From the NCBI GenBank assembly GCA_018902545.1, contig JAHIQM010000018.1, positions 62,001-126,000 of the forward strand: 64,000 nt of DNA. The letters run 5' to 3'. The first letter of the stretch is position 1, and each line of letters opens with the position of its first letter. Positions 12,895-63,557 of the stretch are shown here, in pieces. Source of the DNA: Pseudomonadota bacterium (GTDB lineage Bacteria > Desulfobacterota > Desulfovibrionia > Desulfovibrionales > Desulfomicrobiaceae). Below the pieces are notes generated by a model. That model searched no databases. It was not told the origin of the DNA and worked only from the letters and a program-made list of their open reading frames with translations. A program made the translations under genes and the position numbers.

Positions 12895-13072
12895 GGCTTT
12901 GCGGGCTGGCGGGATGACGGGCCGCCGAAACTCCTTCGCGGGCCTCGTAGAGTTGCATTGTCGCTGCTGTCGAACGGAGGCTTTGACTTCGAGTGATGGG
13001 CGACAATGCAACAAACGATGCCTGGCTCAGTCAGACAGTCGACGCCCCGCCATCCCACCAACCCGCAAAGCC
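12895..13072. repeat. Two-stem palindromic element, copy A (between kbl and tdh)
   Basis: Outer arms 12895-12916 and 13051-13072 pair at 20 of 22 positions. Inner arms 12953-12964 and 13000-13011 pair perfectly over 12 bases around a 35-base loop. Between outer and inner arms lie segments conserved in copy B: a 5' part ending CCTCGTAGAG and a 3' part CAAACGATGCCTG plus CAGTCAGACAG. The arm sequences themselves differ from copy B. No open frame of note lies inside. Confidence 0.85.
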
Positions 13073-13120: not shown

Positions 13121-13171
13121 TCAATGAGGCAGTGGGGGCATTTCTGGCATCACGAGGGCGTTCTATCTGGC

Positions 13172-13199
13172 GTCACTCCCGCGAAGGCGGGAATCCATC
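13172..13199. repeat. REP-like palindrome, copy 1
   Basis: GTCACTCCCGCGAAGGCGGG followed by AATCCATC. This is the widespread proteobacterial repeat of the type GTCATYCCCGCGAAGGCGGG, with CCCGC pairing with GCGGG. Two more copies follow tdh, so the gene is bracketed. Confidence 0.85.
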
Positions 13200-13253
13200 T
13201 TCAAGATTTGGAAAGGCTGAGAATACAATTTCAGAGCATACGAGGACAAGGAA

Positions 13254-37149: not shown

Positions 37150-37318
37150 CCGTTGTCGCCATGGGCCTTTGACCCGCCGGAACTCCCTCTTCGGCCTCGT
37201 AGAGTTGAATCGTTGCGTGCAGGGCGGAAAATTCAGGCAGCACATCAGGCAACGATTCAACAAACGATGCCTGACTCGGTCAGACAGCCGACGAGTCAAA
37301 GGCCCATGGCGACAACGG
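37150..37318. repeat. Two-stem palindromic element, copy B
   Basis: Outer arms 37150-37173 and 37295-37318 are a perfect 24-bp inverted repeat. Inner arms 37205-37216 and 37249-37260 are a perfect 12-bp inverted repeat around a 32-base loop. The segments between are shared with copy A: CCTCGTAGAG on the 5' side, CAAACGATGCCTGACTCGGT and CAGACAG on the 3' side. Apart from the TTG/CAA ends of the inner stem, the arms differ from copy A. With copy C it fills the 392-base gap between two convergent regulator genes. Confidence 0.9.
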
Positions 37319-37320
37319 TC

Positions 37321-37445
37321 CTTGAGGCTCGCCGGAGCCCTTCTTTGGTCTCGATGATTCGACTCTATTTTTGCGGACGGAAAAACCAGGCCGCATCAAA
37401 AGCGATGTTTGGCTCGGTCGGATAGCAGACCAGTCTCAAGCCTAT
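37321..37445. repeat. Degenerate third copy (C) of the palindromic element
   Basis: GCCGGAGCCCTTCTTTGGTC then TCGATGATTCGACTC parallels the 5' conserved part of copies A and B, and AGCGATGTTTGGCTCGGTCG then GATAGCAG parallels the 3' part. Outer arms are short (CTTGAGGCT against AGTCTCAAG) and the inner stem is broken. It abuts copy B directly, in the same orientation. Confidence 0.55.
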
Positions 37446-37496
37446 GGCTACAAGGGGCATTGAGGCGCTGCGGGGTATTTCTTTGGCTTCGGGGAG

Positions 37497-60902: not shown

Positions 60903-63557
60903 TTATGTCGTGGCTCCAAGGGCTTGCCGCAGGGCATTCGTCATTTCTTCAAGAGTGGCCGGTTTGGCGATATATCCGTTCATGCCTGCCGCCAGGAAGA
61001 TTTCCCGGTCACCGTCCATGGCATAGGCCGTCAACGCGATGATGGGGACGTTCTGCTTCGAGCCCAGAGAGGGTGAATTGCGGATGACGCGGGTCGCCTC
61101 GACGCCGTCCATGACGGGCATCTGAATGTCCATGAAAATGCAGTCGATGTCGTTTTCGGTCAGCAGTTCAATGGCCTGCTGGCCGTTTTCAGCCAGAACA
61201 ACCTCGTGCCCGGCCGCTTCCAGGAGCTTCTGGGTGGGGAAGCGGTTGGATTGATCGTCCTCGACGAGAAGCAGGCGTGCTCCGGTCTTTAGTTTCTGGG
61301 ACACGGATTTCATGGGCTGGAGCGATGCTTTTTGGTCCGTCTTGAAGGGCAGGACGACATGCACGCTCGTGCCCTGCCCCGGAGTGCTCTCGATGGTGAT
61401 GCTGCCGTTCATGAGGCTGACCAGTCGCTGCACGATGGACAGGCCAAGGCCAGCGCCCTGGTAATTGCGGGTGTAGGTGTTTTCGACCTGCAGGAACGGT
61501 TCGAAGATGTCGCGCAGGCGGTTTTCGGGGATGCCGATGCCTGTGTCCGTGACACAGAAGTGCGCCCTCAGTTCGTCATCTTTTGCGGGCTGGGCCGTGA
61601 TATTAAGGCTGACCATGCCTGTTTCGGTGAATTTCAGGGCGTTGCCCACCAGGTTGAAAAGCACTTGCCGCACCCGCATCTCGTCCCCGATCAGAATGTC
61701 GGGCATGCCCGGGTCGAGGCTGCATTTGAGGACTACGCCCTTGTTTCTGGCCGTGCCGGCAAAAAGCCCGGACACGGAATCGACGACGTCCTTGACCGTA
61801 AAGGAGGCCTGGCGGATTTCCATTCGGCCCGCCTCTACCCTTGAGAGGTCGAGGATGTCCGAGAGCAGCCCGGTCAGCCGTTTTGCGGCCTCGGCGGCCA
61901 TGCGCACATAATCGGTCTGGTCCACGTCAAGAGAAGTGGTTTCGAGCAGTTGGAGCATGCCCATGACCCCGTTGATGGGGGTGCGGATCTCGTGACTCAT
62001 GTTGGCCAGGAACTCGCTTTTGGACCGGTTGGCGCTTTCGGCTGCCTCTTTGAGCTTGAGCAGTGCCTCTTCGGCTTCTTTTCTGCTGGTCAGGTCCACG
62101 TCCAGGCAGAAGAGCTCCGCTTCGCCTCCCGCCTTCACGACGACGGCGTGGCTGGAGAAGACCACCACTCTGGAACCGTCCTTGCGCATGAGCGTGAGTT
62201 CGCTGGCCGGAATGGCGATTTTTGTTTCGGCCATGGAGGCCATGGCGGCATTGACGTCGTCGCGCATTTCAGGGGGGATGATGAGGTCGACCAGTTTTTT
62301 TCCGAGGGCTTCATCCCTGGTGTATCCGTAAAGAGACTCCGAGGCCCTGTTCCAGTAGCGCGTGGCCCCGTCCATGCCGTATCCCTGCACCGCGACAGAG
62401 GGAACCTCCTCAAAGAGGTTGCGGAACCGCGCTTCGCTTTCGAGCAGGGCTGCTTCGGCCTCCGCGCGTCTGACGATGTCGCGGGACAGGGACTGGGCCA
62501 TGTTATTGAACGCCCTGGCCAACACATCGATCTCGGCGATGTCGGGTGCAGGCGCCACCCTGACGGAAAGATCCCCCTCGCCGATCCGCTTCGAGGCTCC
62601 GGCCAATTCTTCCAGGTCAGCCGCCACGGTCCTGCCGCCCAAGAACCAGCCGCACAGCAAGGTCAGCCCGATGGCCAGAAAGAGGATGCCCAGATCGCGG
62701 AGCATCCCTTTTTGCGCGTCAGCGTAGAACGCCCTGCTCGGCGTGCCCACAAAGAAGTACATGTAGGGAGGCTGGTCCGGGGTCAGCCGCAGTTGCTGGA
62801 AGGCGGTGATGCGCTCCACCCCATCCGAACCCGTTTCCCGGATAAGGCCTTCCTGCGGCCCTGCGGTGGCCTGGGCGAAGACTTCTTGTTTGATGGGTTG
62901 GCCGGGGCGAGTGGCGGAGTTGTCGGGATAGCGGAAGAGACGGGTCCCGTTTCTGTCGCAGACCCCGACAAAGGAGTTTTCCGGAAAGCGGGTGTGTTTG
63001 AACAGCTCTGCGTAACGGTCGAGTCTGATGCTGGTCAGCAGAACCCCGCCGACTTCGCCCTGGTCGTCAAGAATGGGGTATGCGAAGGTGAAGACCGGGA
63101 CGTGCAGGGTTATGCCGACGAGGTATTCGCCGGTGGCGAAGGCCCGGGTGGCCACCGCTTCCCTGAAATGGGCGGTGTGCGCGAAGTTCGCGGGCCCGCG
63201 CGCGGTGGCGGAGGCGACAAGCTCGCCGTTGCGGTCGACCAGATGCAGGACCGCGTAGCCAGGATTGATCGTGAGCAGACTGGAGAAGAGGCGATTGCCT
63301 TCCTCGACATCGGCCCGTCTCACTTCGGGCAACAGGGCCAGGCCTTCGAGGAGGCTTTGCGTGGCCAAGGTGGTTTGCGCCTGAATCTCCGCAATATGCC
63401 GGGAAAAGCCCAGCAACTCCGTTTCGGCGGTGGAGATAGCCTGCCGGCGGTTGTTCAGACCAGCAAGGACAATGATGACCATGGCGGGGAGGGCCGCCAT
63501 AAGAAAGAGGATGGCGAGTTTTTTCTTGATGGAGCCGTGCAGCAGTCGAGAAAACAT
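60903..63557 (-). CDS. Hybrid histidine kinase with Cache sensor
   Basis: An 884-residue protein. Helix (LAILFLMAALPAMVIIVLAGL), a periplasmic dCache-like domain (about 40-280, with VGITLHVPVFTFAYPILDDQGEV), a second helix (DLGILFLAIGLTLLCGWFLGG), HAMP, a PAS domain (about 390-500) and a kinase core: NMSHEIRTPINGVMG with H522, LVGNALKFTETG, DTGIGIP and GAGLGLSIVQRLV. A receiver domain follows, with phosphorylation site D810 (CIFMDIQMPVMDG). ATG 63557 has GGAGG five bases before; the frame extends upstream without a site. No Hpt or output gene is adjacent. Ligand unknown. Confidence 0.92.
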   Translation of the reverse strand: MFSRLLHGSIKKKLAILFLMAALPAMVIIVLAGLNNRRQAISTAETELLGFSRHIAEIQAQTTLATQSLLEGLALLPEVRRADVEEGNRLFSSLLTINPGYAVLHLVDRNGELVASATARGPANFAHTAHFREAVATRAFATGEYLVGITLHVPVFTFAYPILDDQGEVGGVLLTSIRLDRYAELFKHTRFPENSFVGVCDRNGTRLFRYPDNSATRPGQPIKQEVFAQATAGPQEGLIRETGSDGVERITAFQQLRLTPDQPPYMYFFVGTPSRAFYADAQKGMLRDLGILFLAIGLTLLCGWFLGGRTVAADLEELAGASKRIGEGDLSVRVAPAPDIAEIDVLARAFNNMAQSLSRDIVRRAEAEAALLESEARFRNLFEEVPSVAVQGYGMDGATRYWNRASESLYGYTRDEALGKKLVDLIIPPEMRDDVNAAMASMAETKIAIPASELTLMRKDGSRVVVFSSHAVVVKAGGEAELFCLDVDLTSRKEAEEALLKLKEAAESANRSKSEFLANMSHEIRTPINGVMGMLQLLETTSLDVDQTDYVRMAAEAAKRLTGLLSDILDLSRVEAGRMEIRQASFTVKDVVDSVSGLFAGTARNKGVVLKCSLDPGMPDILIGDEMRVRQVLFNLVGNALKFTETGMVSLNITAQPAKDDELRAHFCVTDTGIGIPENRLRDIFEPFLQVENTYTRNYQGAGLGLSIVQRLVSLMNGSITIESTPGQGTSVHVVLPFKTDQKASLQPMKSVSQKLKTGARLLLVEDDQSNRFPTQKLLEAAGHEVVLAENGQQAIELLTENDIDCIFMDIQMPVMDGVEATRVIRNSPSLGSKQNVPIIALTAYAMDGDREIFLAAGMNGYIAKPATLEEMTNALRQALGATT

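Follow-up and report, generated by a model that had tools for sequence, protein, structure and literature searches.

An intergenic hairpin repeat family of Desulfovibrionales with variable arms, a GA-rich core and one strand kept foldable

The stretch of DNA analysed here (the window) is 64,000 nucleotides long and covers positions 62,001 to 126,000 of contig JAHIQM010000018.1 (assembly GCA_018902545.1), from a bacterium of the family Desulfomicrobiaceae close to Desulfomicrobium. It carries two copies, termed A and B, of a hairpin repeat that belongs to a multicopy structured family. The working form of this element would be its folded strand (the minus strand of the window), most likely as RNA, a reading to which we assign even odds (about 0.5) from sequence comparison. 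The fold of one strand, its tolerance of G/U pairs and a core of the kind recognised by proteins together point to RNA. The element is a structured intergenic repeat of a class like bcr1, ERIC and REPIN, but with free arms, a constraint on one strand, a GA core and a polarity relative to the replication fork. Its hosts are sulfate reducers. The identity of the folding strand, the polarity, the conserved GA-NN-GA core and the spread through the order and further go beyond the first-pass annotation of the window.

The copies in the window and the anatomy of the hairpin

Copies A and B lie at 12895-13072 and 37150-37318. The first-pass annotation, made from the letters of the window, had described them as palindromes with covarying arms, and both are real at these positions. 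Compared without gaps, the outer arms are Watson-Crick at 29 of 34 positions in A and 31 of 34 in B, and all 13 inner pairs are formed in each, so that both stems are complementary in each copy, as proposed. Four of the five exceptions in copy A are A/C mismatches on the plus strand, i.e. G/T on the minus strand. The proposed divergence of the stems holds for the outer arms, whereas the inner stems, GTTGCATTGTCGC and GTTGAATCGTTGC, are more similar than had been stated. A 30-nucleotide segment common to A and B occurs exactly twice in the window, with none expected from 100 shuffles.

RNA folding of the minus strand gives a single long hairpin for each copy, with 33 (A) or 31 (B) outer pairs and an inner stem of 13 pairs. 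The z-scores against shuffled sequences are -10.1 and -10.5, respectively; the plus strand of copy A gives -6.7 (copy B was folded on the minus strand only). Copy A is located between kbl and tdh, its folding strand being antisense to both neighbours, and a covariance model matches it at 12903-13067 with 153.1 bits. Read on the folding strand, its outer helix consists of a 5' arm at 13039-13072 and a 3' arm at 12895-12928, assigned from pairing and fold. The conserved core, assigned from sequence, has one strand at 13012-13038 (CTGTCTGA-CT-GA-GCCA-GGCATCGTTTG) and the other at 12929-12951 (TCTACGAGGCC..GA-AG-GAGTT), while the fully paired inner stem has its 5' arm at 13000-13012 and its 3' arm at 12952-12964. 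Copy B, between convergent genes, is matched at 37155-37316 with 175.3 bits. By the same evidence, and again on the minus strand, its outer arms lie at 37288-37318 (5') and 37150-37180 (3'), its core strands at 37261-37287 and 37181-37203, and its inner arms at 37249-37261 (5') and 37204-37216 (3').

The layout is thus an outer helix of about 30 base pairs, a conserved internal loop and an inner hairpin. The sequence of the outer helix is nearly free: at least one change on both sides is found at 22 of the 26 modelled pairs. In a MAFFT alignment of 18 copies from the genome of the window (G000, hereafter the own genome), both sides have changed in 166 cells, compared with 53 under shuffling and no more than 44 in slid controls. 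Arms and ends vary between copies, the ends being partly conserved within subfamilies as judged by eye. An alternative in which the arms have a fixed sequence with random mismatches is contrary to what these copies show. The core has the consensus CUGUCUGA-NN-GA facing GA-NN-GAGUU, with covariation between the NN dinucleotides. Both motifs could be located in 157 of 184 distinct copies (27 others could not be scored). In these, one NN pair is Watson-Crick in 154 copies and the other in 140, the most frequent types being CT/AG (93), CC/GG (32) and GC/GC (12), with TT/AA found once. Elsewhere in the phylum, a 69-nucleotide short form (L338:1501-1569) has no inner hairpin, its core being closed as GAGCGAAGCGAG.

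Strand constraint and replication polarity

Of 143 distinct copies, all but 6 could be anchored. In these 137, outer pairs on the window-minus strand were read from fixed anchors, independently of any alignment. They comprise 2841 Watson-Crick, 279 G/T, 13 A/C and 155 other cells; without two recurrent wobble positions, the ratio of G/T to A/C is 174:13. Changes on one side of a pair at orthologous sites (see below) convert Watson-Crick to G/T or back in 188 cases, and involve A/C in 15. Selection on structure had been proposed from copies A and B, and the excess of G/T over A/C bears this out, showing that it is the fold of one strand that is selected. The ratio is 127:3 between convergent genes, 53:3 and 46:4 between tandem genes (sense and antisense, respectively) and 33:3 between divergent genes. 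With respect to replication it is 73:4 in the majority orientation and 18:1 in the minority, a small class in which 11 of the 18 G/T fall at the two recurrent positions. Since the bias is alike in all gene and replication contexts, the constraint is a property of the element itself.

In roughly 80-85% of copies, it is the C-rich (lagging) strand that folds. The GC skew of G012, one of two relatives with complete genomes, flips sign at 1.42-1.60 Mb and 3.32-3.50 Mb, and the folding strand is C-rich in 30 of 37 clusters (p 1.9e-4; 4 of the 41 clusters lie in unclear skew gaps and are excluded). A best-arc test finds shuffles as extreme in 4 of 5000 cases for G002, the other complete relative, and in 65 of 5000 for G012. 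Local skew on the folding strand is negative for 41 of 45 copies in the own genome (all flanks within 2 kb). In other genomes, where orthologs are counted more than once, this is so for 102 of 120 copies with flanks 0.5-1.5 kb away and for 102 of 114 with flanks 1-1.5 kb away. The majority to minority ratio is 53:9 for convergent, 30:8 for tandem sense, 29:6 for tandem antisense and 17:3 for divergent neighbours. As the same bias is found in every gene orientation, polarity is not a by-product of gene direction.

Family size, spread and evolution in place

The family was searched with a pattern derived from the core and then with a covariance model built from 18 copies. There are 69 matches in the own genome at E 0.01, including weaker opposite-strand matches of the same palindromes; after deduplication, at least 49 distinct placed copies remain, 3 of them cut by contig ends. 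The possibility that only two chance palindromes exist, raised along with the first description, therefore fails. Contigs C6, C7, C9 and C11 of this assembly end inside copies (L004-L009, L205-L207); copy numbers are thus undercounted, because assemblies break at the element. The complete relatives contain 42 (G002) and 51 (G012) copies at E 1e-9. Of the 16 genomes sampled from the genus, 11 have matches. Under stricter filters, with 19 candidates scored per genome, so do 26 of the 150 genomes from the order, in 7 of 36 genera. In the phylum, where 8 candidates were scored per genome, a second model matches 4 genomes besides the own among 297, one of which (G191) has the short form only. Owing to the filters and the limited number of candidates scored, the order and phylum tallies are lower bounds, and the core is recognisable in other orders. 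A pattern scan of named genomes returned 10 stretches, namely 9 Desulfomicrobium contigs from metagenome-assembled genomes and 1 Desulfovibrionales contig.

Searches beyond chromosomes were confined to one copy or one type of pattern per collection: copy B has no match among phages and copy A none among plasmids, while neither of two patterns, the only queries used there, matched in viral contigs. Rfam 15 has nothing at gathering in the window, and copy A and 8 loci with divergent copies give weak sub-gathering matches only. We found no description of this hairpin family in the literature, but subscription papers lay largely outside the search and its absence is unproven.

Placement was derived from simple open reading frame calling. 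Of 177 distinct copies, 150 are classified by gene context: 71 lie between tandem genes (36 sense and 35 antisense), 62 between convergent and 17 between divergent genes. The remainder appear inside a called reading frame (8) or lie at an edge (19). The neighbours in low-copy genomes are ordinary genes as judged by eye from reading-frame lists, no protein family search having been made.

Orthologous copies were defined as reciprocal-best pairs with both flanks matching. There are 124 such pairs, of which the 118 with similar arms were used; 3 could not be anchored and 3 have dissimilar arms. Of their 2832 stem pairs, 2255 are unchanged. Where both sides have changed, 230 pairs are still paired and 18 are not; one-sided changes leave 188 paired and 141 broken. 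Retention of structure during sequence change, first suggested by the comparison of A with B, is thus seen as compensatory change at fixed sites. Between G002 and G012, which are about 94% identical, the per-site difference is 0.028 in the core, 0.061 in the arms and 0.075 in the flanks (29 of 30 pairs measured; flank segments more than 15% divergent excluded), so that the core evolves some 2.6 times more slowly than the flanks. The same comparison contains 9 Watson-Crick double changes. It follows that the arms change nearly at the speed of the flanks, yet in step.

Many copies are vertically inherited. Both flanks of 33 of the 42 G002 copies match those of a G012 copy; a further 5 copies agree at a single flank, and the last 4 at neither. 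In addition, 25 of the 49 own copies have an ortholog in the sampled set, in which the other genomes are represented in part. By eye, 8 of 9 genomes with the gene have a copy at the kbl-tdh site, one of them truncated where its contig ends; in the remaining genome, the contig stops shortly after kbl. Two of the 8 carry another member of the family, a remnant of which is found downstream in G002. At the site of copy B, 3 of 11 best orthologs have a copy.

The closest pairs of copies within a genome are mostly local tandem copies, the number of which is not the same in G002 and G012. Similar arms at unrelated sites indicate past dispersal. Such arms are also seen by eye in genomes of three families (L250, L253 and L273, from f2, f1 and f4), which suggests either horizontal transfer or common descent. 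No clean empty site was found and no target duplication was obtained. The one site examined, a difference between G002 and G012 at G012:189093, resembles a deletion between GTGGC repeats; the own genome has a copy there.

Possible working forms and comparison with known systems

If the element acts as RNA, transcripts would run through it from outside, its own promoter not having been found, and a trans-acting factor would recognise the core, in which tandem GA faces GA around a 2-bp helix beside an asymmetric loop and which resembles a kink-turn. The arms might merely supply a rigid duplex. Local tandem duplication would be the main source of new copies and dispersal a rare one, and fork polarity could be set by duplication, by dispersal or by later selection. 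Template switching between the arms may help to repair them or keep them matched. The element could not be tied to a promoter, a terminator, a transposase, a reverse transcriptase or any Rfam family. The Desulfotalea-1 RNA motif (Weinberg 2010), likewise a candidate structured RNA of Proteobacteria that is neither cis-regulatory nor in Rfam (PMC2864571), may be related.

Several observations weigh against RNA as the working form. The 5' side of the element shows no enrichment in sigma-70-like promoters (scored with approximate weights), and a U-tract follows the helix, as in an intrinsic terminator, in just 3 of 139 copies. RNA from the element strand is therefore unaccounted for where that strand is antisense to both neighbours, and the missing promoter and the position of copy A argue against RNA. 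The likeness of the core to a kink-turn is one seen by eye. In the genus, no copy is detectable in 5 of the 16 genomes. One-sided changes between G002 and G012 show a weaker asymmetry (32 G/T to 6 A/C), and most arms of these two closest genomes still differ by one-sided changes. Transversions make up 104 of 192 Watson-Crick-to-Watson-Crick double changes in orthologs, although stepwise compensation through G/U should favour transitions. Finally, the ortholog counts are not independent, as many comparisons share loci.

Single-stranded DNA is less likely than RNA, and is the main rival. The element would then be non-autonomous and mobile, like REPINs or derivatives of IS200/IS605, and would move at the fork in the form of folded single-stranded DNA, a single-strand nuclease or transposase imposing strand preference and polarity. 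We regard this as possible but unlikely. It agrees with the strand-specific fold, the intergenic dispersal, the predominance of convergent over divergent sites (62 vs 17) and the fork polarity. Compensatory changes are reported in REPINs (PMC3116915), which also resemble the element in being intergenic hairpins, many per genome, with a strand-specific single-stranded fold; IS608-type elements reportedly use the lagging-strand template (PMC6006769). Within the genus, Y1 transposase genes are present in 8 of 11 genomes that carry the element and in 1 of 5 that do not. Yet of the 29 Y1 loci, L124 alone has copies of the element (two) at a distance of up to 1.5 kb, loci L112 and L113 with a gene of the same length have none, and G013 and G015 contain copies without any Y1 match; on these grounds a link to Y1/RAYT was rejected. 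At L124 (509-935 and 1015-1860), in the own genome, the two copies lie directly downstream of the stop of the Y1 (RAYT-like) gene.

The known families also differ from the element. REPINs have two short conserved inverted REPs, whereas the element is about 180 nucleotides long with one conserved internal core, variable arms and no linked RAYT. That it is not a REP, as the first-pass annotation held, agrees with the lack of conserved GTAG/CGTC-tagged inverted REPs at both ends and with ends and arms that differ between copies; a single GTAG, on the plus strand, falls within the core, and other families have lost it. The first-pass annotation had also set attC and CRISPR patterns aside. The neighbourhoods inspected contain no integron cassette arrays, although no attC model was applied. 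IS200/IS605 elements share hairpin recognition on one strand and fork coupling (PMC6006769), but here no transposase is found in or beside the copies examined and the opposite strand folds, the C-rich folding strand being, as we see it, the complement of the IS608-type lagging-strand template. Moreover, fixed copies still evolve under structural constraint, contrary to this model. The repeats bcr1 and ERIC are likewise intergenic, with a predicted common secondary structure and a comparable size (bcr1, 167 nucleotides, 31 copies; PMC2267715). Compared with bcr1 by description only, the element differs in its locus-specific arms, replication polarity and spread through the order and beyond, none of which was seen in that account.

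More tentatively, and with considerable doubt, the copies may be seen as a replication-polar set: tens per chromosome, with the foldable strand lagging, each maintained in place and carrying a GA-rich recognition core. The set might then serve the whole chromosome as a signal of polarity or one linked to the fork, or be an RNA element coupled to the fork; either would be of a kind not described so far. In bacteria, hairpin repeats are commonly viewed as decaying mobile debris; here fixed copies keep their pairing, one strand is constrained and orientation follows the fork rather than the genes. The family provides a natural system for telling selection on RNA or single-stranded DNA structure apart from template-switch repair, and its core is a searchable motif for a partner protein.

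It is improbable that the element is an old palindromic repeat without function, its arms kept complementary by template-switch mutation during replication. Template switching is reported to create and maintain RNA hairpins (PMC8794818), and the double-change pattern fits this mechanism without proving it: besides the 104 transversions (50 of them G-C/C-G or A-T/T-A flips) there are 88 transitions. Adjacent double changes number 64, against 29 expected under position-preserving shuffling (0 of 1000 as high, a control inflated by shared loci) and 51 under uniform shuffling (118 of 2000 as high). Their value as a template-switch signature thus depends on the control. A copying process that regenerates the arms, one option of the first-pass annotation, is compatible with the transversions, but alone it leaves the strand asymmetry unexplained because it removes G/T and A/C mismatches alike; the observed 21:1 ratio is not predicted. 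Nor is the conservation of the core, which lies outside the palindrome, differs less than the flanks (0.028 vs 0.075 per site) and is recognisable in other orders.

A transcription terminator or mRNA 3' stabiliser of neighbouring genes is very improbable: gene 3' ends are favoured (62 convergent vs 17 divergent of the 150 classified copies), but tandem copies are sense and antisense equally often (36:35), the U-tract is rare (3 of 139) and the strand constraint is equal in both orientations. Retrons likewise have long terminal complementary arms (a1/a2), and a bacterial retroelement of the SINE or retron type, copied from RNA and placed at forks by a reverse transcriptase, would suit the RNA-like constraint and the polarity, but it is hardly credible, since 7 of the 11 genomes of the genus that carry the element, among them the own genome and G002, lack RVT_1, and no new dispersed copy was traced to retroposition, recent copies being mostly local tandem repeats. 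A retron msr-msd was rejected in particular, there being no RVT_1 in the own genome. G012 has three reverse transcriptase genes of identical score (L345, L348 and L350), probably copies of one element, whose assignment to the group II type is a guess.

Two further features adjoin the copies in the window. At 37311-37450, after copy B, a stretch resembles, by eye, a degenerate third copy (GGTCTCGATGATTCGACTC ... AAAGCGATGTTTGGCTCGGTCGGATAG), with no covariance-model match at E 10. Beside copy A, at 13160-13205, lies a separate, unrelated short repeat of the TCCCGCGAAGGCGGGAATCCATCTTC type, which also flanks many copies of the element in other genomes.
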